A stretch of 64,000 nt of DNA from Hyunsoonleella ulvae (GTDB lineage Bacteria > Bacteroidota > Bacteroidia > Flavobacteriales > Flavobacteriaceae): NCBI RefSeq assembly GCF_016827605.1, contig NZ_JAEPJQ010000005.1:62001-126000 (forward strand), in the 5' to 3' direction. Of the stretch, positions 3,001-21,182 are shown piece by piece. The translations under genes and the position numbers were made by a program. The notes below the pieces were generated by a model. The model worked only from the letters and a program-made list of their open reading frames with translations. It was not told the origin of the DNA and made no database searches. Each line of letters begins with the position of its first letter. The stretch's first letter is position 1.

Positions 3001-6000
3001 AAACATAACAGATCAAGATTTACTAGATAATTATATAGGAGATCAGATAGGCGAAGCTATTCAATTTAGAATGTTACTAAATATGACCAATAAAGGATGG
3101 CAGTATGATTATGTAACTGGATATTTTGAGTTTGATAATAGCTTGGATTTTAAGGTTATAAAACCAGATAGTGGAGGCACCTTTGCTGCTTTGCCAGTAA
3201 AAAAAATAAAAAAAGAAGGTGGTTTTATAAACAGTAACGCACTTGTTAACCCAATATCTAAAGCTGGGTGGTATTTTGGAAGAACTTATCTAAATAGAGA
3301 AGTTTATAGTTTAGGAGGGGCATCAACAAATACTAAATTTATTGATATAGTTGGTGATTTAGTTTCAAGTCTTGGATCTGTTTTTGAAATATTTCCTGGT
3401 CCAAATGGTAGACTACAAGATAAAGGTTGTGCTCGATTATTTAACCCAGAAAAATCATGGGTACGCTTGTTAAACCCAACTAAGCGAAAGTTAGGAGGAG
3501 GTCTAAGAGTTACAAAAATACAAATGTATGATAATTGGGGAGCAATGACAGATAATCCAACAGATGTACTTTATAACCAGTTTTATGGGCAAGAATATAA
3601 TTATAATAACGAAGATGGAAACACAAGTGGTGTAGCAACTTTTGAACCTACATCTAGTAAGGAAAATCCATTTATAGAGCCTGTATTTGACGAACAAAAT
3701 AACAATCTTAGAGATAAGATAACCGCACCTAAAGAATCTAATTATACAGAAAAACCAATTGGGGAATCCTTTTTTCCATTACCAACTGTAACTTATGGGC
3801 GCGTAGAAGTAAAAAACCTTAAAAGGGTAAAAACAGTAGACGATACAGATATTATTTTAAAAAAACATGCTACAGGTAAAGTAGTAAATGAGTTTTATAC
3901 CTCTTTTGATTTTCCAACAATTACAGACTACACAGATATAAATCCTAAATACCCAGACAATGCTTCTAAGTTGTCTAGTATTTTTAATATTTATGTTAGA
4001 AATCATTATACATTATCTCAAGGGTTTGTTGTTGAAACTAACGACATGAATGGGAAACTAAAAAGACAACGCGTATATGCTGAAGATCAAAACTCTGCAA
4101 TTTCTGGAGTAGATTATAACTATAGTGTGAATGAAGATGGTACGCTTAACAATGTATTACCTACCATTAACAATAAGGGTATTGTTGACAATACACATTT
4201 ATTAGGAGTACACTATGATGTAGTTAACGATTTTAGAGAAAATTACAGCAAATCAGAAACCTTTGGTGTAAATACTAATTTCACTGCATTTCTGGTGGGT
4301 ATTTTCCCTGGTTTTGTGGTACTCCCAGTACCACAGTATGCTTTTCATGAAGATATTTTACGTACTGCTGTTACTACAAAAGTAATACACAAAACAGGTA
4401 TTTTAAAAGAAAAAATAGCTTACGATTTAGGTGCTAGTGTATCTACAGAGAATATTGCTTGGGATGCAAAAACAGGAAATGTACTACTTACCAAAACTAT
4501 TAATGAGTATGATAATTCATACTACAATTTTACATATCCGGCCTATTGGTATTATAAAGGTATGGATTTAGCATCAACAAATTTGGGGCTTGAAGGGTTT
4601 TTGTTATCTACTGAAAAAACCGACGGTAGCTTTAATATTAGATCATTAACATCTGCCACAAACCTTACCAGTAATTTACCCTTATATCCGGGTGATATGT
4701 TATACACCTTATACGAGGAAGCGTTAGAAGAAAATGAAAAGAAGCATGAATTATTATGGGTAGCAGAAGTTACAGACGATGAAGTAAAATTTATGGATAA
4801 AGACGGTAATCTAATTAATCATGAATGCTCACCTTTTACTAAAAACGGACAGGTATACTTTAAAGTTGTACGATCTGGTTACAAAAACCAACAAATGGCA
4901 TCTATGTCATCTGTAACTAGTCAAATAAATCCTATAGATATTGATAATGATGCACACCTACCTAGTGGAGAGTATAATAATTTATCAGATACTTCTTTTA
5001 ATACTAACGAAACTATAAACTCTAACATTATTAATAGTAGTGCTGTTAGGTACAATGAGTATTGGAAACCTCAAGATCAGTTTGGTTTACCACGACTATC
5101 AACAGCTGTTGATGGCCAATTTAATGAGGCTATTAATAATGTTGTTAATAACAGTCCAAACGTAGAAGCTACTGCCTATGGTTTTAACCCTTATATATAC
5201 AATGTAAGAGGAGAATGGCGTGCTATAGAATCTTATGCGTATTTAACCAATAGAAATTCTAATATCGTAAATGCTGGTAATGATCCTAATTTAAAAGATG
5301 ATGGCTATTTTACTGCTTTTGAACCATTTTATAAACTTAATGGCACCAATTGGGAAGTTAATAATACTAATTGGACAACTGCGAGTACTGTAACACAATA
5401 TAGCCCCTATGGTGCAGAGCTTGAAAATAAAGATGCACTAAATAGATACTCTTCTGCCATATACGGTTACGGCTATACTTTGCCAACAGCAGTAGCATCA
5501 AATAACAAATATAGTGAGATTGCTTTTGATGGTTTTGAAGATGGTAACAATAATGCCCCTTTAAACGAAACCTCTGCACTTGTAGATGACGTAAATTTTG
5601 TAACAGGAGAAATAACATATTTTAATAGAGATCACTTTAGCTTTAATACACTAACTGAAGATACTACTGGAAATGGAGAGGTAAGTGCTGAAGAATCGCA
5701 TACTGGCACCCAGAGCTATAAAGTAACAGGAGATCAGGTAAAGGTAACTAGAGACCTTACTGAATTAGAGCATGAATTTAATCCACCTTTATGTCTAGAA
5801 GAAGGCGAATTGCCTCAAATAAAATATTTAGATACAGATCTTAGTCTAATAGTAGATCCTAATCAGGTGGATGATCATGATTCATCTTATGCGGATATCC
5901 TTGATAGTAATGGTCAGGTCATTGGGAATAGTAGTTACATGGGAGGGAATGCAATAAGACAGTTTGAAATACAAATTAGTGCTGATGCAATAGAAGATTT

Positions 6001-6484
6001 AGCTACCATGGATAGAACTTTTCTATTCGTAAATATTAAGAACGAACTTGATTTCCCAATTTGTGGTCAAGATAATCCTCAAGATCCTCAAAATCCACAA
6101 AATGGCTTTACAAATGCTCTATCGACAGTGGTTGAGTTAGAAGATCTAAACAATCCAAATAATGACTCAAGTGTTATAAATGTATTAGAGTGTGATATAT
6201 TTAGTTCCGAAACTAATGATTTTATTAGAGAAAATAATACAAGCCAGCTAATAGAACTTACATTCCCAGATACACCTATTGACAATGAAGACCTTTTAAT
6301 GAAAATAAACTTGAAATTAACTATCGACTACTTGTTGGAAGTGGAAACTTACGATGCCCCTGTTGGATTAGAATTTGATTCAATCGTAGAGTTTCGCTTT
6401 TTAGATGAATATGGTAGAGTACAATCTAACTTACCTTTTAATGATACCCGTTTTACAGTAGATCTAGATGGAGTTACCCCATAA
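2..6484 (+). CDS. Very large secreted RHS-associated protein, 5' end off the window
   Basis: The reading frame is open to the left edge with no ATG, GTG or TTG before base 56, and the residues encoded upstream (basic start, then IASYLAIQLIFTTIQPSNLFA) look like a signal peptide. The true start is therefore probably just outside the window and the TTG at 56 is not the start. About 2160 residues are visible. Near the N-terminus is the block FTPIGTSDMVDLSSGDFNYN followed by a GLGWNLNVGQIAR segment, the type of opening seen in SpvB/TcB/RHS-like secreted proteins of Bacteroidota. The rest is beta-rich, Asn/Thr-rich and repetitive in style without clear YD repeats. No C-terminal type IX sorting domain is evident. 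It is followed 32 bases later by the other RHS-locus genes, so it probably acts with the giant RHS protein at 8524, perhaps as a shell or partner; that role is inference. Confidence 0.75.
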   Translation, partial: NIRKSRYSKIIASYLAIQLIFTTIQPSNLFALTGGPSQPEFNSFTPIGTSDMVDLSSGDFNYNIPIMDVGGYPLNLAYNSGITMDQEASWVGLGWNLNVGQIARNVRGIPDDFKGDEIRYENDMRENVTVGVNFNIQPGFFGKDAPLDIGLGLGVQYNNYEGISWKPSYGLTYSISENVQLGVNVSSSTAEGPTVSPNISISKKGEQLEDMTVSTASGNLGVSFNSRKGLENMSISASGRVNEMLNASSNATTGELEYDVGETLRSGNTGGYISFNDQSYTPTKRAGLENKNFSFSGGAGVTVFGVDVQARITGYGSYQDIRNSEKDKYVPTFGYEHTEANEGLNGILDFNREKEKAYTHNTTVLPITNYTYDIYAIQGQGAGGQFRPFRSQTSYVYDQKITDYGMGGSFGIEADVGNLVHTGFDIKVSPSTSYTSKWEDKNFALPRFIETENDKNDIVYEPVYFQTIAELGLDTEPEIYNSKLYKNKPIKIGLGGSRYNRKALAEFSVKTINDGSNGTIAGTANYEKHDINSTIKRTIRKSRNQSIHKVTNAEAEYDNLIVNRANEFDNPHHTAGIKVLKPDGSTYVFGNTAYNTKKVEATFDMSGVGNESIDCATGIISNVGANTPQNDGGDPRRINDNLNSDAFLNRITTPEYVHTYLLSSVLSSDYEDIDGNGPSLNDLGAYTTFSYKTADDNYKWRIPYDVNEASYNEGLKSKNNDQKGNYLYGEKELVYIDKIETKTHVAVFRLKNREDGRGARGETANVSEPGYQRAIDKIYLLSRPEFEPYRDQINNINDDNAPVYEDLEKIAIKVAHFDYSYILCPGVPNNLNGGGKLTLEKVYFTYRGSNMGMYTPYKFNYEKDFDGDAIIDNNEPYNLKGYDVWGNYKTNSPSAGCEANAPITAAEFPYTDQTKALADKNAKQWTLTSIDLPSGGKLEIETEADDYQYVQNKKVMQMFNVTGAGDTNNPSDAQLNNTVLYNGANHAEYIYVKLSDESIENITDQDLLDNYIGDQIGEAIQFRMLLNMTNKGWQYDYVTGYFEFDNSLDFKVIKPDSGGTFAALPVKKIKKEGGFINSNALVNPISKAGWYFGRTYLNREVYSLGGASTNTKFIDIVGDLVSSLGSVFEIFPGPNGRLQDKGCARLFNPEKSWVRLLNPTKRKLGGGLRVTKIQMYDNWGAMTDNPTDVLYNQFYGQEYNYNNEDGNTSGVATFEPTSSKENPFIEPVFDEQNNNLRDKITAPKESNYTEKPIGESFFPLPTVTYGRVEVKNLKRVKTVDDTDIILKKHATGKVVNEFYTSFDFPTITDYTDINPKYPDNASKLSSIFNIYVRNHYTLSQGFVVETNDMNGKLKRQRVYAEDQNSAISGVDYNYSVNEDGTLNNVLPTINNKGIVDNTHLLGVHYDVVNDFRENYSKSETFGVNTNFTAFLVGIFPGFVVLPVPQYAFHEDILRTAVTTKVIHKTGILKEKIAYDLGASVSTENIAWDAKTGNVLLTKTINEYDNSYYNFTYPAYWYYKGMDLASTNLGLEGFLLSTEKTDGSFNIRSLTSATNLTSNLPLYPGDMLYTLYEEALEENEKKHELLWVAEVTDDEVKFMDKDGNLINHECSPFTKNGQVYFKVVRSGYKNQQMASMSSVTSQINPIDIDNDAHLPSGEYNNLSDTSFNTNETINSNIINSSAVRYNEYWKPQDQFGLPRLSTAVDGQFNEAINNVVNNSPNVEATAYGFNPYIYNVRGEWRAIESYAYLTNRNSNIVNAGNDPNLKDDGYFTAFEPFYKLNGTNWEVNNTNWTTASTVTQYSPYGAELENKDALNRYSSAIYGYGYTLPTAVASNNKYSEIAFDGFEDGNNNAPLNETSALVDDVNFVTGEITYFNRDHFSFNTLTEDTTGNGEVSAEESHTGTQSYKVTGDQVKVTRDLTELEHEFNPPLCLEEGELPQIKYLDTDLSLIVDPNQVDDHDSSYADILDSNGQVIGNSSYMGGNAIRQFEIQISADAIEDLATMDRTFLFVNIKNELDFPICGQDNPQDPQNPQNGFTNALSTVVELEDLNNPNNDSSVINVLECDIFSSETNDFIRENNTSQLIELTFPDTPIDNEDLLMKINLKLTIDYLLEVETYDAPVGLEFDSIVEFRFLDEYGRVQSNLPFNDTRFTVDLDGVTP

Positions 6485-6516: not shown

Positions 6517-7788
6517 ATGAGCATGAAAATTTTACATAAAATATTAGTAGGAAGCCTTTGTTTGTTATTCAACTATTCTTTGTACTCTCAACAGTGCCAA
6601 AGTTTAATACCTAACTATCAAAACGACGAGACAAGCACTACAAATAGTTCTAATTTTGAATTAAGCATAGGATCACATGGTTACAATGAAACTAGTCAAC
6701 AAGATTTGTCAATAAGTTTAGCTGGATCAGGATGGTTACAACTTAATACATCTAGCAATTATGCCAACATCATTAGTACTCCATGGAATGGAAACATTAA
6801 GATTATCAGTAATTCAGGGATATATAAAGGGCAAGATCGAGGTTACTTGATATCTCCTCATATCGTAGAAGACACTTACAAAAGCCCTCTTAATTTAGCT
6901 GGATCTGGCACTATGTTAGGAGCAAAAACAGGAGGTGGTATTCATAAAGAATTAAATTTTATAGAAGAAGGTTATTATTACCTTTTTTTCTCTCAATTAA
7001 ATGCTACTAAGGTTAATGAATTAGGAGCAGTAAGTTCTTCAAGGTGGGCAGTAACAATAAATGGAGTAACAAAAAGAAGTATATATATGCCAAATTCAAC
7101 CGATTTTATTGATAATACAGGAAATTGGAAAAGAGCATTCTTAAAATTTTATATACCTAGTGCTGGACCTTACGATATAAAATTTAAAGTAGAGAATATG
7201 AATTCACCTACTTCTGATGAACTTTATGTTGACAACTATTTGTTATTAGATAATATTGAGCTATATAGAGAAGGAGAATGTAACGCACCAGCTAGAGTAA
7301 CGCAGAGAGAAAGCAGTTCTTTTAAACCTGCTCCAGGAAATTATGTGTTAAGTGCATGGGTAAAAGAAGAGCACACTATACAACAAACCTCATATTCTAG
7401 CAATGTAGATATCTCTTTTAATAATGCTACAGATACTTTTCAGTTTTATCCTTCTGGTCACATTATTGATGGGTGGCAACGTATAGAAGGAATTTTTTCA
7501 ATTCCAAATGGTAGTACAGATATACATATCGTGTTAAATAATAACGTAAACCCTAATCCAGTTTATTTTGATGACATACGTATTCATAGAGCAGATGGTT
7601 CAATGAAGAGTTTTGTATACGACCCAATGACGCAACGCCTTATGGCAGAGTTAGACGAAAACAATTATGCAACACTTTATGAATATGACCAAGAAGGTGG
7701 TCTTGTACGTGTTAAAAAAGAAACAGAGAGAGGTATATATACTATACAAGAAACACGATCTGGAAACTCTAAATTGAATACGCCATGA
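6517..7788 (+). CDS. Secreted carbohydrate-binding-like protein with YD-type C-terminus
   Basis: The 423-residue product begins with a signal peptide ending near SLYSQQ. The middle looks like beta-sandwich carbohydrate-binding modules: the segment NYVLSAWVKEE... through GWQRIEGIFSIPNG... and VYFDDIRIHRADGS (about residues 275-365) is typical of CBM-like jelly rolls in Bacteroidota RHS loci. The last ~60 residues (YDPMTQRLMAELDENNYA, then LYEYDQEGGLVRVKKETERG) are of YD-repeat type, which ties the protein to the RHS protein two genes downstream. Its stop overlaps the next start by the four bases ATGA, indicating translational coupling. ATG at 6517 is followed by a second ATG at 6523, either of which could be used. 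The function is not known; a surface or assembly role for the RHS complex is inferred. Confidence 0.75.
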   Translation: MSMKILHKILVGSLCLLFNYSLYSQQCQSLIPNYQNDETSTTNSSNFELSIGSHGYNETSQQDLSISLAGSGWLQLNTSSNYANIISTPWNGNIKIISNSGIYKGQDRGYLISPHIVEDTYKSPLNLAGSGTMLGAKTGGGIHKELNFIEEGYYYLFFSQLNATKVNELGAVSSSRWAVTINGVTKRSIYMPNSTDFIDNTGNWKRAFLKFYIPSAGPYDIKFKVENMNSPTSDELYVDNYLLLDNIELYREGECNAPARVTQRESSSFKPAPGNYVLSAWVKEEHTIQQTSYSSNVDISFNNATDTFQFYPSGHIIDGWQRIEGIFSIPNGSTDIHIVLNNNVNPNPVYFDDIRIHRADGSMKSFVYDPMTQRLMAELDENNYATLYEYDQEGGLVRVKKETERGIYTIQETRSGNSKLNTP

Positions 7789-8516
7789 TACAAAAACTAA
7801 CATTTATATTATTTGCTATGTGTTGTTTAGCTACTCATACTAGCTTTTCACAACAAGAAGATTTAGATGTGCAAAGCTTGATTCAAAAAGTAAAACACTC
7901 CTACGAGGATGAGCATATGTATAGCTTAAATGTAACATATAAGTTGTATGAGAACTCTACGAGCACTACTCCAAAAGAATTTTTTACGGGTAAAATTATA
8001 AGAGATAATAATCAATATTACTCCAAAATAAACAATACAGAGTTTATTCAGTTTACCAATGCATATGTGAAGATTAATCATGATGAAAAAGCAATGCTAT
8101 ATATTAATGAGCCAGCTAAGGAGGTTGAGAGTATTACAGATTTTACAAAATATTTAGCACATTTTAATGAAGCAAATATTGCATTAGAGAATGGAATGTA
8201 TAAATGCGAAATTACTGCTAAACAAGTTACCTTTCTTCCATTTACTAAATTAGTACTATATGTAGATAAGAATAGTTTTAGATTAAAAAAACAAGTTGTA
8301 TATCTCGCGCAGCATTCCATATCAAAAGATAAAAATGGAAAAGATGTTGTCTCTAATCCTAGACTAGAGATTATGTTTACTAACTTCTCGAATAAAGGCA
8401 TCAACAATTCTCAAGATGTTTTCATACTAAATAATTATGTAAACATATCTCAGAATATAATAAATCCATCAAAAAAATTAGAAGCATACCAACTTATCAA
8501 TGCTTCAAAAAACTAG
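7785..8516 (+). CDS. Secreted LolA-like protein of the RHS locus
   Basis: This encodes 243 residues with a signal peptide (MIQKLTFILFAMCCLATHTS, then FSQQ). The body, with repeated strand patterns such as FFTGKIIRDNNQYYSKINN and KLVLYVDKNSFRLKKQVVYL, resembles the LolA/LolB-like half-barrel fold found in many Bacteroidota periplasmic proteins, though no diagnostic catalytic residue is seen. The start ATG overlaps the previous stop (ATGA at 7785-7788), and the giant RHS gene starts 7 bases after this stop or overlaps it if the upstream ATG at 8500 is used. The tight coupling suggests a dedicated periplasmic helper, for example binding a lipidated or hydrophobic partner during export. That role is inference. 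Confidence 0.7.
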   Translation: MIQKLTFILFAMCCLATHTSFSQQEDLDVQSLIQKVKHSYEDEHMYSLNVTYKLYENSTSTTPKEFFTGKIIRDNNQYYSKINNTEFIQFTNAYVKINHDEKAMLYINEPAKEVESITDFTKYLAHFNEANIALENGMYKCEITAKQVTFLPFTKLVLYVDKNSFRLKKQVVYLAQHSISKDKNGKDVVSNPRLEIMFTNFSNKGINNSQDVFILNNYVNISQNIINPSKKLEAYQLINASKN

Positions 8517-8523
8517 AGTTCAC

Positions 8524-11500
8524 ATGAAAATCACATCAATACTTACAACTTCCTCTATGTTTAGAAATTATATCTGTACGTTTCTTGTAGTACTGGCTGT
8601 AAAAAATATTAGCTATGGTCAAGATTATACTTATGAAGTATCAGGAACTTACAATTCTGCATCAATAGATGCTAATGTAGCATCGGGTACATTTCTATCA
8701 AGTCAAGAAGATGCGGAAATTGCGCTCCAAGACAAAGTATCTTTGGCTGATGTCTCATACGTAAAATTAGGAGTGGATCATGATACATCTTTTTCCTACT
8801 GGTACAAGTATACGATAACTTTAGAAATAACACCTATTTTGTCTGATGGTACTGATGGTACTGCTTATCTATTAAATGGAGATGATGCCTTGTCTGTAGA
8901 ATATAACCCTTCTGGGCCTAGCAACAATTATATTGATGTAACACAACACCAAATTCCAAATAGTAACGGCATTAAAATAAAAGTACTAAGTATTACAACT
9001 GAAAATTTGAGCGATACTTCGCAGCCTATAAATACGAGTACATCTCCAACAAATATATATCTAGAAACAGGGTTTCAATCAGAACGCTATTATTTTCAAT
9101 CAAATCAACCCACAAGCTTTACAAGTACTTTAGGTACTTATGTTGATGAAAATAATACAACTGTAAACTGTAACTGCCTAGGTTTAAGTTGGACAACTAT
9201 AGAGGGAGCAATTTCTTATGATCTGGAATGGACATGGGTTGATAATTATGGTAGCGATCCCGAAAATCCAACTCCATTGGATGCAACAGATATTAAGCTA
9301 TCAAATAGTAATTTTGAAAGAAACAGTACTAGAATAAATACCAGTAACTTAAGTTATCAAATACCTTTAATATATTCTCAAGGCTATATTGTATATCGCA
9401 TTAGGGCAGTTGGTAAATTTTTATCAGATCCTACAAAATACAATTATGGAGATTGGAGCTCTGGTATTACATCTAAAACCTATGTTAGTGAATGGAACGA
9501 TAAAACGTTAATAACATCTCATGAAAATAAAAAGAATTGGCAGTTTCAAGCAAGTTATGCTGAAGAAGGTAAGAAAAAAGAAGTAGTAAGTTATTTTGAT
9601 GGAACACTACGAAACAGGCAAACCGTAACTAAAATTAATAGTGACAATAATGCTATTGTGGGTGAGGTAATATATGATAATCAAGGACGTCCAGCAATAG
9701 AAGTATTACCAGTACCAGCTGGAGACAATAGGCTAGATTTTTATCCAGATTTTAATTTAAATATAGATAATGAATTATATACACATAATAATTTTGATTG
9801 GGACTCGGCTGATGCTTCACAATGTGAAATTGATAAAGATAAATTGGGTATGTCCACTCAAAATGGGGCTAGTAAATATTATGGTGTTTTAGATAATATA
9901 ACAAATACATTTCAAGACTACGTACCTGATGCTGAAAATTTCCCCTTTTCTCAAATAGAATATACGCCAGATAATACTGGAAGGATAAGAAGAAAAGGCG
10001 GTGTAGGTGCTGAACACCAATTAGGCTCTGGTCATGAAATGAAGTACTATTATAGTACACCTTCCCAGACCGAACTTACGAGGTTGTTTGGGAGTAATGT
10101 TGGTAATGTTTTACACTATAAAAAAAATATGGTTGTAGACCCTAACAACCAAGTAAGCATAAGCTATATAGATCCACAAGGTAGAACCATAGCTACAGCA
10201 TTAACAGGAGATAATCCACCTGCTCTAGAATCAATAACTAGTGAGAATCAGGCATCACAAGTCTTAGATGTTTTAAACAAGAAGAATGCATCCGATACAG
10301 ATACTGATCTTGATAATAATATAAAATATGCAACTTCCAGATTTGGTAACATACGTGATGGCCTACAAGTATCGAAACAAATAGCAGTTGCTTCAGATGC
10401 TTCTAGTTATGATATAGATTATCAAATTTTGAATGATACACCTTTTACCCCTCAATATTGTTCAACACACATTTACCCATTTGTATACAACCTTACTTTA
10501 AGTCTCAAAGATGATTGTGCTAATGAGTTATTACCATCTACAGTGAATAATATTATAGTAGGTACAGAAAGTCTAGATGGTACGGCTATACCTGTAAATA
10601 CACCATCTACAGTCCAAGACTTAAGTGAAGTGTTTCTAAATACAGGAACTTATACGTTGTATAAAAATCTAACTATTGATGAAAATGTTTTAAACAATTA
10701 TGCTAATGATTATATTTCTCAACTTAAAGATTCAAGTTCAAGTTGCTACATTAATCCAGATGGTTTTGCCCCTGAAGCAGAAATAGAAGGCTGTGATCTT
10801 ACCTGTGATGAGTGTAAAAATGATTTAGGATTACAAAATGAATATATTGAAGATGAATTGAGAAGCTACTACGGTAGTAAGAGTGATTTTGTAATAACAG
10901 GAAATAGTAGTACTGGGTATACTGTAGATACAATTCCTCAATCTGATGATGATAACAACGGAACGGAAGATATCAATCAAGAAGAAGTAGAGATTTTAAT
11001 AATAACTTTTAATCGAGAGTGGGAGTTACTTTATCAGGCATGTGAGCAGTTGGAAGGCTGTAGTGTAACCCCAGTGTTATCTTCCTGTTCTGTAAACACT
11101 GCATTGTTATTGCAAGATATGAGTCCTCTTGGACAATATGGAAGCATTCAAGACAGTGATGACACAGACGATATACTTACCATTAATGACCCATTAAGCA
11201 TATTTAATGAAGCAAACCAGTTAATTATAAATGGGGTTTCTGGTGGAACACACTGGAGATCTCCTGATGCTTATTTTGATTCTTATGGAAATGTAGCAAA
11301 AATAGAAGTTATTCAAAATGCAGATGGAAGCTATATTCCACAAATACAACCAGATGTTACAGTACGTACTGTAAATAATGAGGATGGTACTTTAAAATAT
11401 TTATGGGTACAACCTCAAGATCTCTTATATGTAGAAGACTTTTTATCCTATTGGGAAGACTCTTGGGCAGAATCGCTTATAGAATACCATCCAGAAAATT

Positions 11501-14500
11501 GTTATTTGGAGTATAATACACAGTTGTGTACATTAACATATAACGATTTAGATACAGATGCTTATGATAGCTATATAAATTCTATCACAACCTTTGCCGA
11601 TGCAGTTTCTGCTGGTGTATTTGCAAATGAAGATGATATTTATGATGAAGATCCTTATTTCCATAATACCTTGGGTACACCTTACGAGACTAATGATATA
11701 TTAACTTGGAGACGAGGTATTATGACAGAAGCCATTACAACTAACTATGATGGTAATGCTAATGTAAGCATGTGGCAAATGGCATATATTACAGTAATGT
11801 GTAATGGTATTACAACATGTAATACTCCTTCAAACTTTAGTGAAATAAACAATTTAAGTAATGAGAAGTTAAAAGATAGAATATGGGAAACCTATAGATC
11901 ATTTTATTTGTCACTTAAAGAGAAGATTAAGTATGTTTTTATAAATGTATATGCCAAAAACGAAGGTTGCTATAATGGTTGTATTGGTGTAGAAGGAGCT
12001 TCTACCCTTACCAATGTAATTCGGGATTATGCTCAAAAAGACAACATTGCCAATTACATAAATAACATTACAACCCCACAATTTTGTGATATTACACAAT
12101 CGAGCCTATATATAGAAAAAACAAAACAATTTGTACCAATTGATATTGGATATGATTCTTCTTTAGATATAGACGACCTAATCGAAAACACAGAAGTAGA
12201 TACTGAGGTGGCTGTATATTTACAAACAGGAGAATGTCCACTTTTACAAGATTTAGAGGCGTTTCTAAGTGGTTTTGTTGAAGAGAAAAACTCATCTGGT
12301 ATTCAGCTTAATATTACTCAAAATAGAGTATATGCAGGTCAATACTTATCTTCAGATTTATATGAAGCTTTTGGAGGTATTATTAATGAAACCAGTACTA
12401 TAAATATTAATTCAAATATTAATGGTAGCTCAATTAGTATTTCTATTCCTGAAATAGCTGTGCCATGTGTTAATCCAGTTACTTTAACATTACCTGCTTC
12501 TTCAAGTTTAAGTTGGAGTAACTATAATCCCACAATAGGTACAGGTTGGCATATAATAGGATTATCTAATCTTTATTATGATAACGATTTATCTGATTTT
12601 AGTAACGGTAATACTAATTATGGATTTCAAATATTAGCACGTATTCAGGATGGAACGGAACTCAAAGAAATTGTTTTAACTGGAACTACTTGTACAGCTA
12701 TCGGAGAGTGTTCTACTTTTGATGATGGAGATACCATTGGTGAGGTTATAGATACCAATGTCTCAAATCCTGAGAGTAAGTTTGGATGTACAAGAAAAGC
12801 CAAATTTAAGAGAGACTTTGTAAAACTTTTAAATGTTCTTAATCAAAATAATACAATTAATGGTACTAACATAAGTTTAAATCAATACCCTGCTTATATA
12901 AACAGTATTTTACCAGAGTTTTTTAACGATTTTACAGAGAATCATACAGCTACTTGGAGTTTTAGTTCTTCATCCTATACTGTAGAAGTTTCAGGAAATA
13001 TAACGTTTACCTTTAATGCAGAATCCATAGATATTGCTAATGATCACACATTTGAATATATAACTATTAATGAGGGAGCTTCAGATCAAATAAGTATCTA
13101 TGCCTCTGATGAATTAGGAAATATATATAACGATACTGGTGTTGGTCTTTTAGGAGGAGGGATATCTCCAGGGCTAAATTATTCCTGTTGTCCAGAAGAT
13201 GATGAAGGGCCTCAATTAGTACCAACTTTTACTTTTAGAAAACAAATTAGCAATGGAGGTATTACCGGAGATGGCACACTGGGTAACAGGTTGTATTACA
13301 AAGATGTTACAGTAAAACCATTGGGGATTTCATTTGGATTGAATGAAATTATTGATATAGATTTTGATGCAGGAAGTGGTTATGATAATTTTTTTAATTC
13401 TACTAATCCTGAAGATTTTAATTTTACACTATTTCTTAATGGAGAGGAGTTTACAAGAGAAAATGGCAAATTGGCTATCTCTTTTTTAGAAAACATGGAT
13501 ATTCATGGTTTTGTACATGCAGGTGCACGTAATCGCATATCTTGGAATGCGTATTATCCTTTTGATTTTGAAATGTATAATTTATCGTATGATTACGATC
13601 CACTTGTTGAATTTGATTTTAATGAAGGTACTGGTAATGCATTTTCTTCTCTTGGTTTAGTAGAAATGAATACTAATGAAAATAGCTGGATTACAGACCC
13701 AATACATGGTACAGGTCTAAAATTTAGTGATCAACTAGAGACACATTGGAATCAAATTGATAACTATGGATTATATTTTCTTAAAACAAAAATAAAATTT
13801 ATGGGAGATATACCCGCTCCCCATCCTCTCTATTCCGAATACAATGATGCTGGATTTATTTTACAACTAGATCATCAAGATTCTGCAACAGGTCATTTAA
13901 ACCAATTTGTTGTATTTGCAGAGAGAAGTTCTGATATAATAGGGCAAGATTTAATTAATGGGCTGGGATCTTTCAGTTGGGTTAATGAAAATGAGATTGC
14001 TAATGTGTGTAACTATGACATTAACAATACTGGTTTTACTTTACCAAATGCCGATTGGACTACATCATCAATTAGTTCATCATTCGAAATACGTCTTCCT
14101 TCTATAGGTTATTCAAATGCTGCTATTAACGATACTAGCTGTTATAATCACAACCAATATGGAGCTATAGATAGTCCTAATTATGGTTTTTTTCCTGAAG
14201 ATGTACACCCCTCTCCTGATGGTGGTGCATTTATGGCTTCTTTTCAGTACAGTGATAATGGAACAGATGGATTAAATATAAAAGTACGCGATCTAGAGAT
14301 TGGAGAAACCTATACGATATCATTCTATCAAACTTACTTAGGTTTTTCAGACCATGCTATTACTAATTCTAACCTTAGTTTATCGCCTGCTAAATGGTTG
14401 GTAATTATAGATCGTTATAGCCCTAATGAACAAACTTTAACTACTAGCGATAATATGTCTTTTGCTTCTGGAGCTAAGAGGTGGGAATATGTAGAACATA

Positions 14501-17500
14501 CTTTTGTAGCAACTGATTCTATACATGATTTATATTTTGCAGGTCTTAAAGCAAATTTAGGAACGCCAAAATCCTATATAGGTATTGATGGAATAAAGGT
14601 TACTAAAACCATCGATAATTCTAATGTATCTAGCTCTAATACTAATTGCTTAGCGGACTGTATACCTCAAACAGTAGCACCAATAAGCTCTGATGAAAAA
14701 TATAACGATTTTATAAACTTTTTAGCATTTAATTCAGATGCAGATCCAGAATCTACCAAAATAAACAACTTATATTTCTCAAGTTTACCAAAATTAACAA
14801 CAACAGATCCCAATGATGATGAAACTCTTGAATTCTTTAGGGCATTTAATTATGCGTATTTAGTAGATTCTTATATAGCATATATTGAAGCGTTAAACAT
14901 TACATCAACTTACGATAAATACTACCTTACTATTGCTGAATTTGGAGATACAAATCTAAATTACGGATACGATATGATAGATACTGTAGTAGCCGCCTAT
15001 GTGTCATATACTGGTGGTCACTCAGAAACAGATAATGAAGAAGATATTTATTGGAACGATTATGTTAATACCATTTATATGGTAAATAACTTTGTTTGTC
15101 CACCAGTACCAATGCAACCAAAACAAACATTTGTAATTGAAACTCCTCCAGTAAATCCGTGCGAAAGCTTTAGACTAAGTATTTCTGAAGCTTATAAACA
15201 AGAAGCCTATGAAAGCTATCTTAATGAACTAAAGGAGGAGTTTAAAAGAGAGTATATAAAACAAGGTATTACAAATGTAGAAGAGACACTAACAGCATCA
15301 TATTCTGATAAAGAATACCAATACACATTATACTATTACGATCAAGCAGGTAATCTGGTACAAACCGTAGCACCAGAAGGTGTAGATAAACTAAACGCCA
15401 GTGAAATAGCTAATGGAGATCAACCAGAACATACATTTAAAACACAATACCGTTATAATTCTTTAAACCAATTAGTATGGCAAAGTACACCAGATGGTGG
15501 AGAAACGCGTTTTGCTTATGATGAATTAGGTAGAATTATTGCTTCACAAAATGCAAAACAAATCAAAGGAAATCCTGAAGTAGGTTTTGGCAATTTCTTT
15601 AGTTATACCCAATATGATGAACTAGGTAGAATAATAGAAGCTGGAGAAGTCTTTGACCCGGTTACCATTCAAAATCCAGGAAACAACACTTATAAGAGGG
15701 CAATTGGTGATGATGGAAAATTGTACAGATTGGTAAATGGCGTATACAATCCTGCTAATATTGAAAATAGCTTTCCTCAGTTTCTGGACAGAAAGCAAAT
15801 TACAAAAACTACCTATACAACCACATCATCGCTAGCACAAAGTTTAGGTTTTAATCAATCAACAAATACACGAAATAGAGTAACCTCTGTGATTTACATT
15901 GAAGACTCAAGTTCTGGATTAGATTGTAATAATGCTATTTTTTATGATTATGACATTCACGGTAATGTAAAAAAAATGGGGTATTACGTGTATCTTGGAG
16001 ATCCAAGTGCACAAAAAACTTTAAAAACTACAGAGTACGAGTACGATCTAATAAGCGGTAATGTTAACCAAGTTATTTATCAAAAAGATCAACCAGATCA
16101 ATTTATACATCGTTATCAATATGATGCAGATAATAGGATAACAGCAGTACAAACTTCCAGAGATGGTGTCCTTTGGGAAACAGATGCTTCTTATCAGTAT
16201 TATGAGTATGGACCATTAGCTCGTACTGTGCTAGGGGAACAGCAAGTACAAGGTATAGATTATGCTTACACCATACAAGGCTGGTTAAAAGGAGTAAATG
16301 GAGAAAATGCAGGTGTTAATGATATGGGCAATGATGATGGTACACTTACAGCAAAAGATGCTTTTGGGTTCTCGTTAAACTATTTTAGTGGAGACTATAC
16401 TAATGTTGCAGGAACTACGCCTTTTACAGTAGCTGAGTCCTCAAACCAAAATCCAAATAACTTGTACAATGGTAACATAAAAACAATGGTTACTAGTTTA
16501 ATTGATTTAAATGAAGATGCCTTAAGTGTACTGCAAAACAATTACACTTACGATCAGTTAAATCGTATAAAAACCATGCAGTCATACAATATAGCAAACA
16601 GCAATTTAGTTTATGCATCCAATTATACATATGACAAAAATGGTAACCTCACAAGTTTAGAGCGTGATGCTAACGGAACTCCAATGGATCGTTTATCTTA
16701 TAACTATAACTCCAATCAATTAACTCAAAATTCCACATTACGTAACAACCGCTTGTACAGTGTAGACGATACAGTAGCTGCAAATACCTTTGAAGATATA
16801 GATATTGATGGCGGACAATCCACAGGTGTTTTCGATACCCAATCCGGAGAGTTCAATAATGCCAATTACCAATACGATGCAATAGGGCAACTTATAAGTG
16901 ATGAACAAGAAGGGATTACGAACATAAACTGGCGTGTAGATGGTAAGGTAGAAAGCATTACAAAAGATGATGGTACCATAACAAGTTTTGAATATGATGG
17001 CTTAGGTAACCGCATATCAAAGACACATATACCTTTAGGTAATACCAGTGATGCCACACATACCTATTACATACGTGATGCCCAAGGCAATGTAATGGCT
17101 GTTTATAATAAAGGGCTTGTGGAAGTATCTAATTCTACTACAGCAAATATTCCATCAGGAATTATTTCGGGGACAGAAACTTACCAAGCCAATCAAGATA
17201 TTATCTTTGGCGGAAACGGAACATTTACGGTTACTGCTCCAAATGGAAATATTACTGTAGAAGCTGGTAATTCTATTACTTTAAAACCAGAAACACATAT
17301 AGAGTCAGGAGCAGAAGCACTTTTACAGATTAATCAAAACATTAATATTCCACCTGTAACTGAAATTGTAGGTTTAGAATTATCAGAACATCATATATAC
17401 GGTAGCTCAAGATTAGGGATACAACAATATACAGAGACCCCTACTTTAGTTGCACACACATATAACAATACTATTGGAGATAAACGTTACGAACTAAGTA

Positions 17501-18639
17501 ACCACTTAGGCAATGTTTTAAGTGTAATAAGCGATCGTAAATTATTAAAAAATGGTATATTTACATCAGACGTTCTTTCATATAATGATTACTATCCCTT
17601 CGGTCAAGCCCTACCGGGTAGAAGTGGACAATCTGACGACTATCGTTATGGATTTAATGGTTTTGAAAAAGATGATGAAGTTAAAGGAAGCGGTAATAGT
17701 TACACCACTGAATGGAGACAGTATGACCCAAGAATAGGAAGATGGCTTTCTATAGACCCTGTTTACAAGCCTTTTGAAAGTCCTTATGTGGCTTTTTCTA
17801 ACAACCCAATGTATTATATTGATAGATTAGGAGATGACCCTGAGCCAGCAATTACAGTTTATCAAGGCTTGCTTTACATAACTGTATTGAGCGAGATGTT
17901 ATCAAATATAGCTAGTGTTATTGAAGATGGGACAAAAACAATCGAAGCTATGAATGCTGAGTTGGATTTGGTAAATCAGAAACGTCAGGCATTAGGCTTT
18001 TTTGAAAGAAACAATTTATCATCTTGGATTAACGAGGCTATTTATACTTTTACAGATGAAAAGCTTCAAGAAATGTACGATAACGTAGTTTCTATAACTG
18101 AAGAACGCATAGACGAGTATGAGAGGTTATATTCTTATTACAATGAAATTAATAAAACATTAGCAGAATTTTTAGATAGTGATGTAGCAGAAGAACTTGT
18201 TTTTGAAACCGAAGATGGCGGTTATGAGATTTATAGAAGAATCCCAAACGCATCCACAACCAAATCTCAAGCTACAAATACTAATAATAGCCTTCATAAG
18301 AATAATAATAAGTATAAAGGACATCAAGGGGTTTATGAGATTAAAGTTAATGGAAAGACCTTTAAGTATGGGAAAGCTGATATGACAAATATGAGTTCCA
18401 CTGGTTTACCAAGAAGACTTCAGTCACAAATTAATAAGTTAAAAAAGAAATTCCCCGGAAAACTTATAACTGGTAAGGTAATTTTTAATAGGAAGAATAT
18501 AACAACAAAGAAGATTAAGGAAATAGAAGCTAAAACAGTAAGGAAATACGTTAAAAAGTTTAAGACCTTCCCTAAAGGTAATGTATTGGAAAGAAAAGCA
18601 GCAGAGAGAAAGAAGAAAGCAAAACGAAAGAAAATATGA
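8524..18639 (+). CDS. Giant RHS/YD-repeat protein with GIY-YIG-like nuclease toxin tip
   Basis: About 3371 residues. The chosen start gives MKITSILTTS... and a signal peptide ending near ISYGQ; an in-frame ATG at 8500 overlaps the previous gene and is less likely. Residues ~320-400 (VVSYFDGTLRNRQTVTK) resemble the DUF6443-type lead into YD repeats. Clear YD motifs run from ~2270 (YYYDQAGNLVQTVAPEG) to ~2990. The RHS core lies at ~3035-3105 (YRYGFNGFEKDDE, GRWLSIDPVYKPFESPYVAF, NNPMYYIDRLGDDP), after which the sequence changes character. A helical linker is followed by residues ~3265-3360 with GVYEIKVNGKTFKYGKA, an Arg pair (LPRRLQSQ), a Glu (KEIEAKTVRKY) and a late Asn (FPKGN), the order of conserved residues of GIY-YIG nucleases. 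The tail is strongly basic. By analogy with polymorphic toxins the RHS shell would enclose and release this tip. The next gene overlaps the stop and is a candidate immunity gene. Confidence 0.85.
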   Translation: MKITSILTTSSMFRNYICTFLVVLAVKNISYGQDYTYEVSGTYNSASIDANVASGTFLSSQEDAEIALQDKVSLADVSYVKLGVDHDTSFSYWYKYTITLEITPILSDGTDGTAYLLNGDDALSVEYNPSGPSNNYIDVTQHQIPNSNGIKIKVLSITTENLSDTSQPINTSTSPTNIYLETGFQSERYYFQSNQPTSFTSTLGTYVDENNTTVNCNCLGLSWTTIEGAISYDLEWTWVDNYGSDPENPTPLDATDIKLSNSNFERNSTRINTSNLSYQIPLIYSQGYIVYRIRAVGKFLSDPTKYNYGDWSSGITSKTYVSEWNDKTLITSHENKKNWQFQASYAEEGKKKEVVSYFDGTLRNRQTVTKINSDNNAIVGEVIYDNQGRPAIEVLPVPAGDNRLDFYPDFNLNIDNELYTHNNFDWDSADASQCEIDKDKLGMSTQNGASKYYGVLDNITNTFQDYVPDAENFPFSQIEYTPDNTGRIRRKGGVGAEHQLGSGHEMKYYYSTPSQTELTRLFGSNVGNVLHYKKNMVVDPNNQVSISYIDPQGRTIATALTGDNPPALESITSENQASQVLDVLNKKNASDTDTDLDNNIKYATSRFGNIRDGLQVSKQIAVASDASSYDIDYQILNDTPFTPQYCSTHIYPFVYNLTLSLKDDCANELLPSTVNNIIVGTESLDGTAIPVNTPSTVQDLSEVFLNTGTYTLYKNLTIDENVLNNYANDYISQLKDSSSSCYINPDGFAPEAEIEGCDLTCDECKNDLGLQNEYIEDELRSYYGSKSDFVITGNSSTGYTVDTIPQSDDDNNGTEDINQEEVEILIITFNREWELLYQACEQLEGCSVTPVLSSCSVNTALLLQDMSPLGQYGSIQDSDDTDDILTINDPLSIFNEANQLIINGVSGGTHWRSPDAYFDSYGNVAKIEVIQNADGSYIPQIQPDVTVRTVNNEDGTLKYLWVQPQDLLYVEDFLSYWEDSWAESLIEYHPENCYLEYNTQLCTLTYNDLDTDAYDSYINSITTFADAVSAGVFANEDDIYDEDPYFHNTLGTPYETNDILTWRRGIMTEAITTNYDGNANVSMWQMAYITVMCNGITTCNTPSNFSEINNLSNEKLKDRIWETYRSFYLSLKEKIKYVFINVYAKNEGCYNGCIGVEGASTLTNVIRDYAQKDNIANYINNITTPQFCDITQSSLYIEKTKQFVPIDIGYDSSLDIDDLIENTEVDTEVAVYLQTGECPLLQDLEAFLSGFVEEKNSSGIQLNITQNRVYAGQYLSSDLYEAFGGIINETSTININSNINGSSISISIPEIAVPCVNPVTLTLPASSSLSWSNYNPTIGTGWHIIGLSNLYYDNDLSDFSNGNTNYGFQILARIQDGTELKEIVLTGTTCTAIGECSTFDDGDTIGEVIDTNVSNPESKFGCTRKAKFKRDFVKLLNVLNQNNTINGTNISLNQYPAYINSILPEFFNDFTENHTATWSFSSSSYTVEVSGNITFTFNAESIDIANDHTFEYITINEGASDQISIYASDELGNIYNDTGVGLLGGGISPGLNYSCCPEDDEGPQLVPTFTFRKQISNGGITGDGTLGNRLYYKDVTVKPLGISFGLNEIIDIDFDAGSGYDNFFNSTNPEDFNFTLFLNGEEFTRENGKLAISFLENMDIHGFVHAGARNRISWNAYYPFDFEMYNLSYDYDPLVEFDFNEGTGNAFSSLGLVEMNTNENSWITDPIHGTGLKFSDQLETHWNQIDNYGLYFLKTKIKFMGDIPAPHPLYSEYNDAGFILQLDHQDSATGHLNQFVVFAERSSDIIGQDLINGLGSFSWVNENEIANVCNYDINNTGFTLPNADWTTSSISSSFEIRLPSIGYSNAAINDTSCYNHNQYGAIDSPNYGFFPEDVHPSPDGGAFMASFQYSDNGTDGLNIKVRDLEIGETYTISFYQTYLGFSDHAITNSNLSLSPAKWLVIIDRYSPNEQTLTTSDNMSFASGAKRWEYVEHTFVATDSIHDLYFAGLKANLGTPKSYIGIDGIKVTKTIDNSNVSSSNTNCLADCIPQTVAPISSDEKYNDFINFLAFNSDADPESTKINNLYFSSLPKLTTTDPNDDETLEFFRAFNYAYLVDSYIAYIEALNITSTYDKYYLTIAEFGDTNLNYGYDMIDTVVAAYVSYTGGHSETDNEEDIYWNDYVNTIYMVNNFVCPPVPMQPKQTFVIETPPVNPCESFRLSISEAYKQEAYESYLNELKEEFKREYIKQGITNVEETLTASYSDKEYQYTLYYYDQAGNLVQTVAPEGVDKLNASEIANGDQPEHTFKTQYRYNSLNQLVWQSTPDGGETRFAYDELGRIIASQNAKQIKGNPEVGFGNFFSYTQYDELGRIIEAGEVFDPVTIQNPGNNTYKRAIGDDGKLYRLVNGVYNPANIENSFPQFLDRKQITKTTYTTTSSLAQSLGFNQSTNTRNRVTSVIYIEDSSSGLDCNNAIFYDYDIHGNVKKMGYYVYLGDPSAQKTLKTTEYEYDLISGNVNQVIYQKDQPDQFIHRYQYDADNRITAVQTSRDGVLWETDASYQYYEYGPLARTVLGEQQVQGIDYAYTIQGWLKGVNGENAGVNDMGNDDGTLTAKDAFGFSLNYFSGDYTNVAGTTPFTVAESSNQNPNNLYNGNIKTMVTSLIDLNEDALSVLQNNYTYDQLNRIKTMQSYNIANSNLVYASNYTYDKNGNLTSLERDANGTPMDRLSYNYNSNQLTQNSTLRNNRLYSVDDTVAANTFEDIDIDGGQSTGVFDTQSGEFNNANYQYDAIGQLISDEQEGITNINWRVDGKVESITKDDGTITSFEYDGLGNRISKTHIPLGNTSDATHTYYIRDAQGNVMAVYNKGLVEVSNSTTANIPSGIISGTETYQANQDIIFGGNGTFTVTAPNGNITVEAGNSITLKPETHIESGAEALLQINQNINIPPVTEIVGLELSEHHIYGSSRLGIQQYTETPTLVAHTYNNTIGDKRYELSNHLGNVLSVISDRKLLKNGIFTSDVLSYNDYYPFGQALPGRSGQSDDYRYGFNGFEKDDEVKGSGNSYTTEWRQYDPRIGRWLSIDPVYKPFESPYVAFSNNPMYYIDRLGDDPEPAITVYQGLLYITVLSEMLSNIASVIEDGTKTIEAMNAELDLVNQKRQALGFFERNNLSSWINEAIYTFTDEKLQEMYDNVVSITEERIDEYERLYSYYNEINKTLAEFLDSDVAEELVFETEDGGYEIYRRIPNASTTKSQATNTNNSLHKNNNKYKGHQGVYEIKVNGKTFKYGKADMTNMSSTGLPRRLQSQINKLKKKFPGKLITGKVIFNRKNITTKKIKEIEAKTVRKYVKKFKTFPKGNVLERKAAERKKKAKRKKI

Positions 18640-19097
18640 AAGCATCATTGATGTCAATTTTAGTAGATTCAGATTTAGAATATGAATTTCCATATCAAAT
18701 AGGTCTTTTATTTCATGAAAGGTTTAATAATGTTTTTGAAAAAGAAATCATTATTGCAAATCCTAAGTATAAAGATTGGATTTTAAGCTTAAATTTATCT
18801 CATTCAAAACCTATTAAAGACATATTGTTAAAAGGTCCTGATATTGATAAAAGAAATAAGATTGTTACTTTTTCAATTTTTAATGGAATTATTAAAAAAG
18901 GAATATCTTCTAAAGAAATAACAATTTTTTTCATGGAAAATTTGTTGATAAATTTAAAAGATATATTAGAATTGTTAAAAGTTGAAATTGCTTTTGACTT
19001 AGTAGAATCCTTTTTTGAAAATTTTCTAAATGATTTAAATATTAATTATGAAAAATATATTGACTATTACACCGAAGAAGATGACGAACTATTTTAG
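18636..19097 (+). CDS. Candidate immunity protein for the RHS toxin tip
   Basis: The 153-residue product has no signal peptide, so it is predicted cytoplasmic. It starts inside the stop of the RHS toxin gene (ATGA overlap). It is acidic, especially its C-terminus (YYTEEDDELF), which complements the very basic toxin tail. It is mixed alpha/beta with a helical second half (ITIFFMENLLINLKDILELL). The base composition looks richer in A and T than the preceding RHS core, typical of exchanged toxin/immunity cassettes, although this was not computed. I do not recognise the family. The immunity role is inferred from position, charge and size. Confidence 0.6.
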   Translation: MKASLMSILVDSDLEYEFPYQIGLLFHERFNNVFEKEIIIANPKYKDWILSLNLSHSKPIKDILLKGPDIDKRNKIVTFSIFNGIIKKGISSKEITIFFMENLLINLKDILELLKVEIAFDLVESFFENFLNDLNINYEKYIDYYTEEDDELF

Positions 19098-19341
19098 TTT
19101 TATATTATTGTTTTTTTTAATTAGCTGTACAGATGTTGAAAAGGCAAAAACCTCTGAAGATATTATTGAAGCAGAGAATACTGAAAAATTGGAGAATCTA
19201 AAGATGGAAATTGAGATGCAAAGTATTGATAGGGCAGAAAAAATAGATAGTTTGATTTTCGAGATTGAGAAGTTTAATCAGATGACAAAAGAAACTATCA
19301 AAAATAGCAATGATAGTATTTCAAAAAGTAAATTAAAATAA
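19081..19341 (+). CDS. Small lipoprotein overlapping the candidate immunity gene
   Basis: Starting at ATG 19081, the 86-residue product begins MTNYFSFILLFFLISC, a good lipoprotein signal with a cysteine after LIS. An in-frame ATG at 19048 would place a hydrophilic stretch before the signal and is rejected. The mature part is highly charged and probably a coiled coil (about residues 20-75). The gene overlaps the preceding gene by 17 bases in another frame, so they are probably co-transcribed. It could be a second immunity component in the periplasm or an unrelated cargo gene; its function is unknown. Confidence 0.55.
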   Translation: MTNYFSFILLFFLISCTDVEKAKTSEDIIEAENTEKLENLKMEIEMQSIDRAEKIDSLIFEIEKFNQMTKETIKNSNDSISKSKLK

Positions 19342-19541: not shown

Positions 19542-19808
19542 AGTTTTAAGGTAACAACTGTTAGTTTTCCTATATTAAGTGTTTCAAAATATAGTGATGT
19601 AGCAATATGGGTAAAGAAATTGGGATGACGTTAAGCATAGTATTAGATGGCTACAGGTACGTAATCAGTATAAAGCGATATCATTTTAAAAGTATTGATA
19701 ATTTACAGAAAAAGCTGGAATTTCATCATCCGATGAAAAGCATGGCGTTTTAGGTATGATTTATGTGTTAAGAAATAATGAGAATTTAATAATTTGTATA
19801 TTTGTAAT
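19542..19808. other. Intergenic stretch with only a doubtful 48-codon ORF
   Basis: Between repeat copy 1 and the antitoxin gene I see no recognisable gene. A 48-codon ATG-to-TAG frame (19607-19753, starting MGKEIGMTLSIVLDGYRY) exists but has no recognised homology or clear ribosome-binding site. Just before the antitoxin start is TATATTTG (19797-19804), which matches the Bacteroidota -7 element TAnnTTTG, but no TTG is found at the right distance upstream. Confidence 0.4.
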
Positions 19809-20051
19809 ATGAGTGCATTAGAATTAAGGCATAAACTGCAAGAGCTGATGAAATATACCAATGATTTGGATTTGGCTAAGGCTTTTGATGAATTTGTTGA
19901 AAAATATAAACGAGAAAAATCTACATCTGTTTTAACCAAGGCACAACAAAAAGAAGTAGAAAGAAGGAGAGAAAAACATTTAGCTGGAGAAGGAAAGTCT
20001 TATACTCTAGAAGAATTCAAGCAAGAGGTTTCTGCGAGATATGGCATATAA
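19809..20051 (+). CDS. Antitoxin of a ParE/RelE-type toxin-antitoxin pair
   Basis: This encodes an 80-residue charged helical protein (MSALELRHKLQELMKYTNDL...) ending with a segment of the type EEFKQEVSARYGI, which resembles the C-terminal toxin-wrapping part of short addiction-module antitoxins. ATG 19809 is preferred over an ATG 15 bases upstream because the latter adds MYICN only and sits inside the -7-like box. It overlaps the toxin gene by 11 bases, the usual antitoxin-first arrangement. It probably neutralises the toxin and may regulate the operon, although no DNA-binding domain is obvious. Confidence 0.7.
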   Translation: MSALELRHKLQELMKYTNDLDLAKAFDEFVEKYKREKSTSVLTKAQQKEVERRREKHLAGEGKSYTLEEFKQEVSARYGI

Positions 20052-20331
20052 TCTTATTGTTAGGGATGATGCTCTTAAAGATGTGTTTGCGAGTTATGAT
20101 TGGTATGAGAAGAAGCAAATTGGATTAGGTAAAAGATTCTATACTGAAGTTCAGAAGATACTTGGCTACATAAAACAATATCCACATCATTATCAAGTTA
20201 AGTTTAAAAATATACGGGAAGGTGTTTTAAAGATATTTCCTTATGTTATTATTTATGAGATTTTAGATAATGATATTATAGTTTATTCTGTATTTCCTAC
20301 CAAAGATAATCCAGATAAGAAACCGAAATAA
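20041..20331 (+). CDS. ParE/RelE superfamily toxin
   Basis: The 96-residue product has the classic layout of the RelE/ParE plasmid-stabilisation fold: an N-terminal strand (YNLIVRDDALKDV), a helical hairpin with DWYEKKQIGLGKRFYTEVQK, the YPHHYQVKFKNIREGVLKIF core, and a final strand pair ending VIIYEILDNDIIVYSVFPT. Such toxins either poison gyrase (ParE) or cleave mRNA on the ribosome (RelE); which applies is not decided by sequence reading. It overlaps the antitoxin gene by 11 bases and is followed by a hairpin terminator. The pair lies between two direct copies of a REP-like repeat. Confidence 0.85.
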   Translation: MAYNLIVRDDALKDVFASYDWYEKKQIGLGKRFYTEVQKILGYIKQYPHHYQVKFKNIREGVLKIFPYVIIYEILDNDIIVYSVFPTKDNPDKKPK

Positions 20332-20624: not shown

Positions 20625-21182
20625 ATGAGTAGAAATTATAAGTTTCACAACAAAGCAGGTCTATATTTTGTAAGCTTTGCCACCGTAAATTGGATTGACG
20701 TATTTACAAGGCAGATATATTTTAACGTTTTGGTAGACAGTATAAACTATTGCAGGGTAGAAAAAGGTATGGAACTATATTGCTACTGTTTTATGCCTAG
20801 CCATGTGCATTTTATATTCAGGTCAAGAAATGAACAACCCTCAGAACTATTGCGAGACTTTAAACGTCATACGTCTAAAAAAGTAATAGAAGCCATTGCA
20901 AACAATCCACAAGAAAGCAGAAAAGAATGGCTGTTGTGGATGTTTGAACGTGCAGGAAAAAAACAAGGCAATATTTCAAAATACCAATTTTAGCAGCATC
21001 ACAATAAGCCAATAGAGTTATGGAGCGAAAAAGTAATCAAACAGAAAATAGATTATATTCATAATAATCCTGTAGAAAGTGGTTTTGTAACTAATCCTGA
21101 AGATTGGAAATACTCAAGTGCCAGAAATCATCAAGACGACCATACTGTTTTAGAAACAGATGATATTGGATTTTTTCAATAA
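20625..21182 (+). pseudogene. REP-associated tyrosine transposase (RAYT, Y1_Tnp), broken by TAG
   Basis: Reading from ATG 20625 gives an IS200-like Y1 transposase. The N-terminal part has AGLYFVSFATVNWIDVFTR and the HUH motif (FMPSHVHFIFR). A TAG at 20991-20993 interrupts the frame at codon 123, yet the same frame continues for another 62 codons with the expected family C-terminus (NKPIELWSEKVI, DYIHNNPVESGFV, WKYSSARNH) to a TAA at 21180. Family members usually have Trp where the stop is, so TGG to TAG is the likely mutation. The shortened product would lack the helix carrying the likely catalytic Tyr. With REP-like repeats directly upstream, it was probably the enzyme that spread them. Readthrough is possible but unsupported. 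Confidence 0.85.

Follow-up and report, generated by a model that had tools for sequence, protein, structure and literature searches.

A giant RHS protein of Hyunsoonleella ulvae with a probable GIY-YIG nuclease toxin tip and an adjoining probable immunity gene

Closest described systems and the window locus

Nuclease tips of the GIY-YIG type are known from polymorphic toxins, and it is beside these that we place the toxin tip and the adjoining small gene which end a giant RHS protein encoded in a 64,000-nucleotide stretch (the window) of the 4.06 Mb genome of Hyunsoonleella ulvae. The survey of Zhang et al. 2012 presents Tox-URI2 (PF15653) as a polymorphic toxin clade of GIY-YIG/URI nucleases, prints its motif as 'Y, KxG, [EQ]' and gives RHS proteins among its carriers, with adjacent immunity genes (PMC3482391). 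As far as this description goes, the window cassette is similar in its motif, its RHS carrier and its adjacent probable immunity gene, and one of two related tips matches the Pfam model weakly; it differs in that this sole match is below the curated cut-off, whereas the window tip and the other relative have none. The immunity families named for Tox-URI2 in the survey are Imm9, Imm12, Imm39 and Imm44, whereas the window protein matches no Pfam Imm model.

The Hpy188I family shows the pattern (I/V)Y-x9-K-x-G, with Lys in place of the Tyr of YIG (PMC2630997). Set beside R.Hpy188I by this published pattern, the tip has the same Y-x9-K-x-G spacing, an Arg in a helix and the metal-binding Glu; R.Hpy188I is a restriction enzyme, whereas the tip is a domain of ~115 residues within an RHS protein. 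The TANFOR and BaCT-BaCTic systems, as set out for Bacteroidetes (PMC7073777), share with the window a giant carrier, a variable C-terminal nuclease and an adjoining immunity gene; the window carrier is instead a DUF6443/RHS protein with a nuclease of another superfamily, and no TANFOR row is found among the window NCBIfam matches up to E 0.1. The N-terminal GIY-YIG domain of UvrC (1yd5, 1ycz) and I-TevI (1mk0) keep the canonical YIG Tyr where the tip has Lys, and show no significant sequence similarity to it. A literature search returned no paper joining Hpy188I with polymorphic toxins, and none joining RHS, Flavobacteri, toxin, immunity and DUF6443, which does not imply absence elsewhere.

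Taken together, the observations described below make it likely that an exchangeable GIY-YIG nuclease toxin-immunity cassette ends this giant, probably Sec-exported RHS protein. The immunity family and the tip clade are unrecognised by the libraries searched, whereas RHS nuclease tips paired with an antidote are a kind already known.

Motif and predicted fold of the toxin tip

The carrier and cassette consist of the following features, where ORF denotes an open reading frame.

8500..18639, + strand: RHS carrier protein, 3379 aa; ORF with DUF6443, YD repeats and RHS core detected
9544..9849, + strand: DUF6443 domain, residues 349-450 (PF20041, E 6.4e-14)
17590..17832, + strand: RHS repeat-associated core, residues 3031-3111 (TIGR03696, E 1.6e-10)
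17839..18291, + strand: acidic pre-toxin linker, net charge -17, 33% identical to the linker of the relative L004
18292..18636, + strand: toxin tip of 115 residues (3265-3379), a probable GIY-YIG nuclease, called from relatives, alignment, model, fold matches, motif count and pN/pS
18334-18336, 18364-18366, 18415-18417 and 18526-18528, + strand: codons of Y3279, K3289, R3306 and E3343 of the tip
18636..19097, + strand: acidic 153-aa protein, probably the cognate immunity protein; a homologue follows the tip in 2/2 relatives

The carrier begins with a hydrophobic segment which by eye resembles a Sec signal, and towards its end the TIGR03696 core is followed by the linker and then the tip, the order of core before tip being that of an RHS toxin cassette. 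A preliminary description of this locus had proposed a basic tip downstream of an RHS core, and both its coordinates and the basic character hold (net charge +31, isoelectric point (pI) 10.8). It had also pointed to an overlapping small acidic gene, and the RHS stop and the start of the 153-aa ORF indeed overlap as ATGA, the product having a net charge of -10, a pI of 4.7 and, by eye, no signal peptide.

A pattern-based scan across 84,980 species, which detects close relatives only, yielded two further tips: one in Seonamhaeicola aphaedonensis (L004), the other in a metagenome-assembled genome of Omnitrophota (L005). In the alignment of the three (A1), [IV]Y-x9-KxG together with an invariant Arg and Glu is common to all; the hairpin half-motifs are GVY or AIY, plus KYG, in 3/3 tips at the spacing x9, so written that the second half is not plain YIG and Lys stands at the place of its Tyr. 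In RHS numbering the residues of the window tip are Y3279 (GVY), K3289-Y3290-G3291 (KYG), R3306, E3343 and N3361. The order of residues proposed earlier thus stands for GVY, KYG, Arg and Glu, while its late Asn is not fixed, being present in two of the three tips as aligned (L005 has His in the column and Asn three residues earlier; the residue is Gln in Hpy188I). As judged from these residues, the tip carries the GIY-YIG signature in its Lys variant, as published for R.Hpy188I and Tox-URI2.

The stop-to-stop frames of at least 100 aa in the window add up to 22,810 residues; [IV]Yx9KxG occurs in them twice, and [IV]Yx9[KY]xG followed by Arg and Glu once. Amongst 100,000 shuffled tips, 846 held the bare motif and 221 the form with Arg and Glu, hence the tip motif is more than chance.

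The fold predicted for the tip is β-β-α-β-α-α and contains the GIY-YIG core β-β-α-β-α, with strands at 15-25, 28-36 and 65-77 and helices at 47-59, 78-96 and 104-120; R48 and E85 (A1 numbering), invariant in 3/3 tips, lie within the helices 47-59 and 78-96. Confidence (pLDDT) is 88-94 in ten-residue blocks from 21 to 80. The preliminary description had named a GIY-YIG fold as the check, and the five best VIA structure matches are GIY-YIG nucleases of three kinds, PD-T4-3 (whose identity we presume), I-TevI and T4 EndoII, with middling scores; three of the five are classed as GIY-YIG on our own assumption. The characterised GIY-YIG enzymes matched by the model are UvrC, I-TevI, T4 EndoII and a 5hmC restriction enzyme, all of which, going by entry titles or by what we take to be their activity, act on DNA. 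This argues against a GIY-YIG-fold toxin that targets RNA rather than DNA under the same immunity logic, an alternative which we regard as unlikely. It would suit a tip that is small, strongly basic and lacks any added DNA-binding domain that we could see, and the figure legend of a Bacteroidetes toxin survey does label GIY-YIG as endoribonuclease (PMC7073777).

Several results weigh against a GIY-YIG nuclease. The window tip has no Pfam, NCBIfam or PADLOC match above cut-off; Tox-URI2 is reached by the L005 tip alone, with 14.3 of the 20 bits needed and E 0.053, while the window and L004 tips have no PF15653 match at E up to 10, and the tip was not filed as a member. A profile-profile comparison with eight GIY-YIG domains from its own genome aligned one column, and 156 of 200 column shuffles gave an equal or higher score; the tip profile found no GIY-YIG entry among Protein Data Bank (PDB) sequences. 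The structure scores are middling and come from a model built on three sequences, the confidence of which falls to ~53 behind the Glu helix (A1 residues 91-110), and the Omnitrophota tip is barely basic (+4). The general model PF01541 likewise matches none of the three tips, and its nine matches in the own genome do not include the tip. Since sequence profiles fail to recognise the tip, it is by motif, fold and context that we assign it to GIY-YIG. These same points would be expected of a basic toxin of some other fold and activity whose GIY-YIG likeness is due to chance and a weak model; we consider this improbable in view of an independent motif kept at fixed spacing across two phyla, the high confidence over the blocks from 21 to 80 and the three kinds of GIY-YIG enzyme that lead the VIA list.

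Among other matches of the tip, PDB 8fje 'E8' (E 0.0017, no stretch passing alone), PstB (E 0.0066, 15.8 of 343 bits), and MRP-S27 and BD-FAE (E 0.02) were set aside as chance. Tox-URI2 was found in 0 of 249 same-family genomes, no control genome giving a match either, and in 5 of 395 genomes of the phylum Bacteroidota at E 0.01, none above cut-off; three of the five were translated and are unlike the domain by eye, and the other two contain stops.

Linkage of tip and immunity gene

The L004 tip is 69% identical to that of the window and the L005 tip 54% over the best segment (45% over the alignment). Related tips with a different neighbour would, by the preliminary description, have spoken against its reading; in 2/2 relatives the next gene encodes a homologue of the 153-aa protein, 45% and 24% identical to it in L004 and L005, respectively. 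BLASTP joins the window protein to that of L005 at E 3e-9 and the L004 and L005 proteins to each other at E 4e-5, the best-kept stretch being GPD-x-x-KR-x-K. The ATGA overlap recurs in L004, and L005 has a 17-base gap. Opposite charges are found in all three pairs of tip and immunity protein (+31/-10, +30/-14 and +4/-4). The carriers differ, in that L004 shares the linker and L005 has another RHS stub; the latter suggests that the tip travels together with the gene next to it. Between the window and L004, the proportions of synonymous (pS) and nonsynonymous (pN) differences are 0.75 and 0.22 for the tip and 0.63 and 0.34 for the immunity gene and, pS exceeding pN in each, both look under purifying selection.

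The own genome holds no second tip at E 1, and each relative genome has one copy of the immunity gene at E 0.01. Among sampled same-family genomes the tip was found in 2 of 397: one is its own, and the match in the other, 52 residues long and interrupted by five stops in its frame, was dropped as chance; it is present in 1 of 395 phylum genomes (its own), 1 of 7 in the genus of L004 and 1 of 145 in the phylum of L005, again their own. The immunity protein matches itself in the own genome, apart from one 49-residue match at E 0.7 which was dropped, and 2 of 388 same-family genomes, the first being its own and the second giving a 36-residue match that on reading proved to lie in a 41-codon frame between other genes and was dropped as chance. 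The gene next to the tip is accordingly specific to this tip type. Scans of viral contigs and plasmids, which also find close relatives only, gave no relative of the tip or of the immunity protein, and a like scan of phages none of the tip.

The immunity family was said to be unrecognised in the preliminary description, and this is upheld by searches of Pfam, NCBIfam and PADLOC, in which the window protein has no match above cut-off. None of the three immunity proteins matches a Pfam Imm model, which would exclude the four families named above if their models are, as we presume, in the searched Pfam. The best match, MSV199 (E 0.029), is below cut-off, occurs in one of three members and was rejected. 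For the fold, no match at E 0.001 was obtained in PDB or viral models; the VIA list is led by YbeY and other zincin-like rows, below the level excluding common arrangement.

A small ORF with a lipobox overlaps the end of the immunity gene:

19081..19341, + strand: small ORF resembling a lipoprotein gene, with a LISC lipobox by eye (start 19048 in the ORF list, 19081 as annotated)

A similar small lipobox ORF lies at the same place in L004 (3459-3710), also overlapping the immunity gene end; between the two, pN is 0.41 and pS 0.71, and their pairwise similarity is not significant (E 0.16). It is possible that this ORF is a third gene of the cassette. Its presence in the window and L004 could also mean that protection lies with it or elsewhere and that the 153-aa gene encodes other cargo or an adaptor. 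We hold this to be very improbable, as the 153-aa family alone is present in all three loci, no lipoprotein-like ORF of at least 60 aa directly follows the immunity gene in the Omnitrophota locus, a nuclease requires a cytoplasmic antidote, and in the same genus Imm35 occupies the same position beside its known toxin type. The 153-aa protein is most likely the antidote of the tip; the toxin-antidote reading advanced earlier is thus supported by the linkage, motif and fold, with DNA the most likely target.

The following mechanism is proposed. The RHS shell would carry the tip outside the cell, and the released tip would enter a neighbouring cell and cut nucleic acid, most likely DNA, through a Lys-variant GIY-YIG site. 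The residues of this site are conserved in the tips, and from Hpy188I we infer that Tyr3279 may activate water, Lys3289 replace the YIG Tyr, Arg3306 bind phosphate and Glu3343 hold one metal ion. The 153-aa protein, whose translation is probably coupled to that of the RHS protein by the ATGA overlap, would bind and block the tip in the cytoplasm of the producer and its kin, linkage being what was observed and binding what it suggests.

With this cassette come a nuclease toxin that is rare, the scan of 84,980 species having given two relatives, and an immunity family without a Pfam or NCBIfam match above cut-off; the pair appears to have moved between Bacteroidota and Omnitrophota, and the Lys-for-Tyr active site of R.Hpy188I and Tox-URI2 gains a small testable example.

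The L004 locus is a row of RHS tip cassettes. At 1-1320 the RHS tip contains a RES domain (PF08808, E 1.6e-12) and is followed by a 92-aa gene with a sub-cut-off match to the Xre/MbcA/ParS C-terminal model, apparently a toxin-antitoxin pair reused as RHS toxin and immunity. A third RHS tip cassette lies at 3922-4992; it has no Pfam match and shows, by eye, a metallopeptidase-like motif, HELLHLGG.

Tip exchange, LolA3 genes and neighbours

A search with the RHS core region in 12 genomes of the genus gave matches in five, and ten RHS stretches were listed, comprising the window and nine others, one of them in the own genome. The tip regions of all nine were read, L030 and L032 being cut by contig ends. 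These stretches are 38-67% identical to the query core, and none of the three tips and three immunity proteins matches them in tblastn at better than E 1.3; even where the cores are as much as 67% identical, the carriers thus bear different tips. In L033 the tip is a papain-fold toxin (PF15644) and the next gene Imm35 (PF15567), a pairing described in the 2012 survey (Zhang et al. 2012, PMC3482391). This locus is a positive control from the same genus and position, in which tip and next gene mean toxin and immunity. The RHS tips of L026 and L029 are followed by 155-aa genes (3208-3675 and 2673-3140, respectively) for which Pfam gives nothing at E 0.01; these are likely further unnamed immunity families. 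A second RHS stub on the same contig of the own genome, outside the window (L031; C19:43958-44227, minus strand), has a HINT-like segment, then a tip which by eye resembles a nucleotidyltransferase (GS...DDFDID), with a small gene after it.

Two genes precede the RHS carrier:

6517..7788, + strand: 423-aa gene upstream of LolA3, RHS-like C-terminus by eye
7785..8516, + strand: LolA3-family gene directly upstream of the RHS gene, overlapping its start (NF053579, E 3.1e-56)

LolA3 is directly upstream of 4/4 large RHS genes examined in the genus, the window included; for the three others, from two genomes, it is found at E 1.3e-44 or better (L038 2052-2759, L039 2779-3501, L040 811-1533), the four loci being homologous, of one genus and not independent. 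ORFs with a C-terminus similar to that of the 423-aa gene precede LolA3 in L038, L039 and L040. Two RHS genes of lesser size in the genus (1446 and 1569 aa) have directly upstream ORFs without an NCBIfam match and no LolA3. DUF6443 is present in all four large genes, just below cut-off in the RHS gene of L041, and also in the smaller gene of L042 (E 5.5e-43), which rules out a tie of LolA3 to DUF6443-type RHS genes as such, this gene having no upstream LolA3. The link is with large RHS genes. No LolA3 match was obtained in plasmids or viral contigs. In Flavobacterium johnsoniae, deletion of LolA3 left gliding and amylase secretion unchanged, and RHS is unmentioned in the main text of that report (PMC11885536).

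We offer as a hypothesis that LolA3 has a role in RHS export. A wider proposal, to which we give some weight though we think it rather doubtful, would place the cassette in a dedicated giant-RHS export module, with periplasmic LolA3 carriers helping to export the downstream RHS toxin or to place it on the surface, perhaps together with the small lipoprotein, and with an antidote of a new family, possibly a dead zincin-like scaffold. The occurrence of LolA3 before each large RHS gene examined suggests a testable role for this LolA paralogue, and may matter more than the toxin finding itself.

Further upstream, positions 56-6484 encode, in the same direction as the RHS gene, a giant protein of at least 2142 aa which is RHS-like by eye but which neither Pfam nor NCBIfam matches at E 0.1. 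Just 3' of the RHS cassette, at 19794-20331, lies a ParE toxin gene (PF05016, E 5.7e-8), upstream of which is an antitoxin-like gene with an Unstab_antitox match below cut-off. It is followed at 20625-20993 by a 122-aa ORF for an IS200-like Y1 transposase, which covers model positions 26-91 of 121 and is possibly a remnant.

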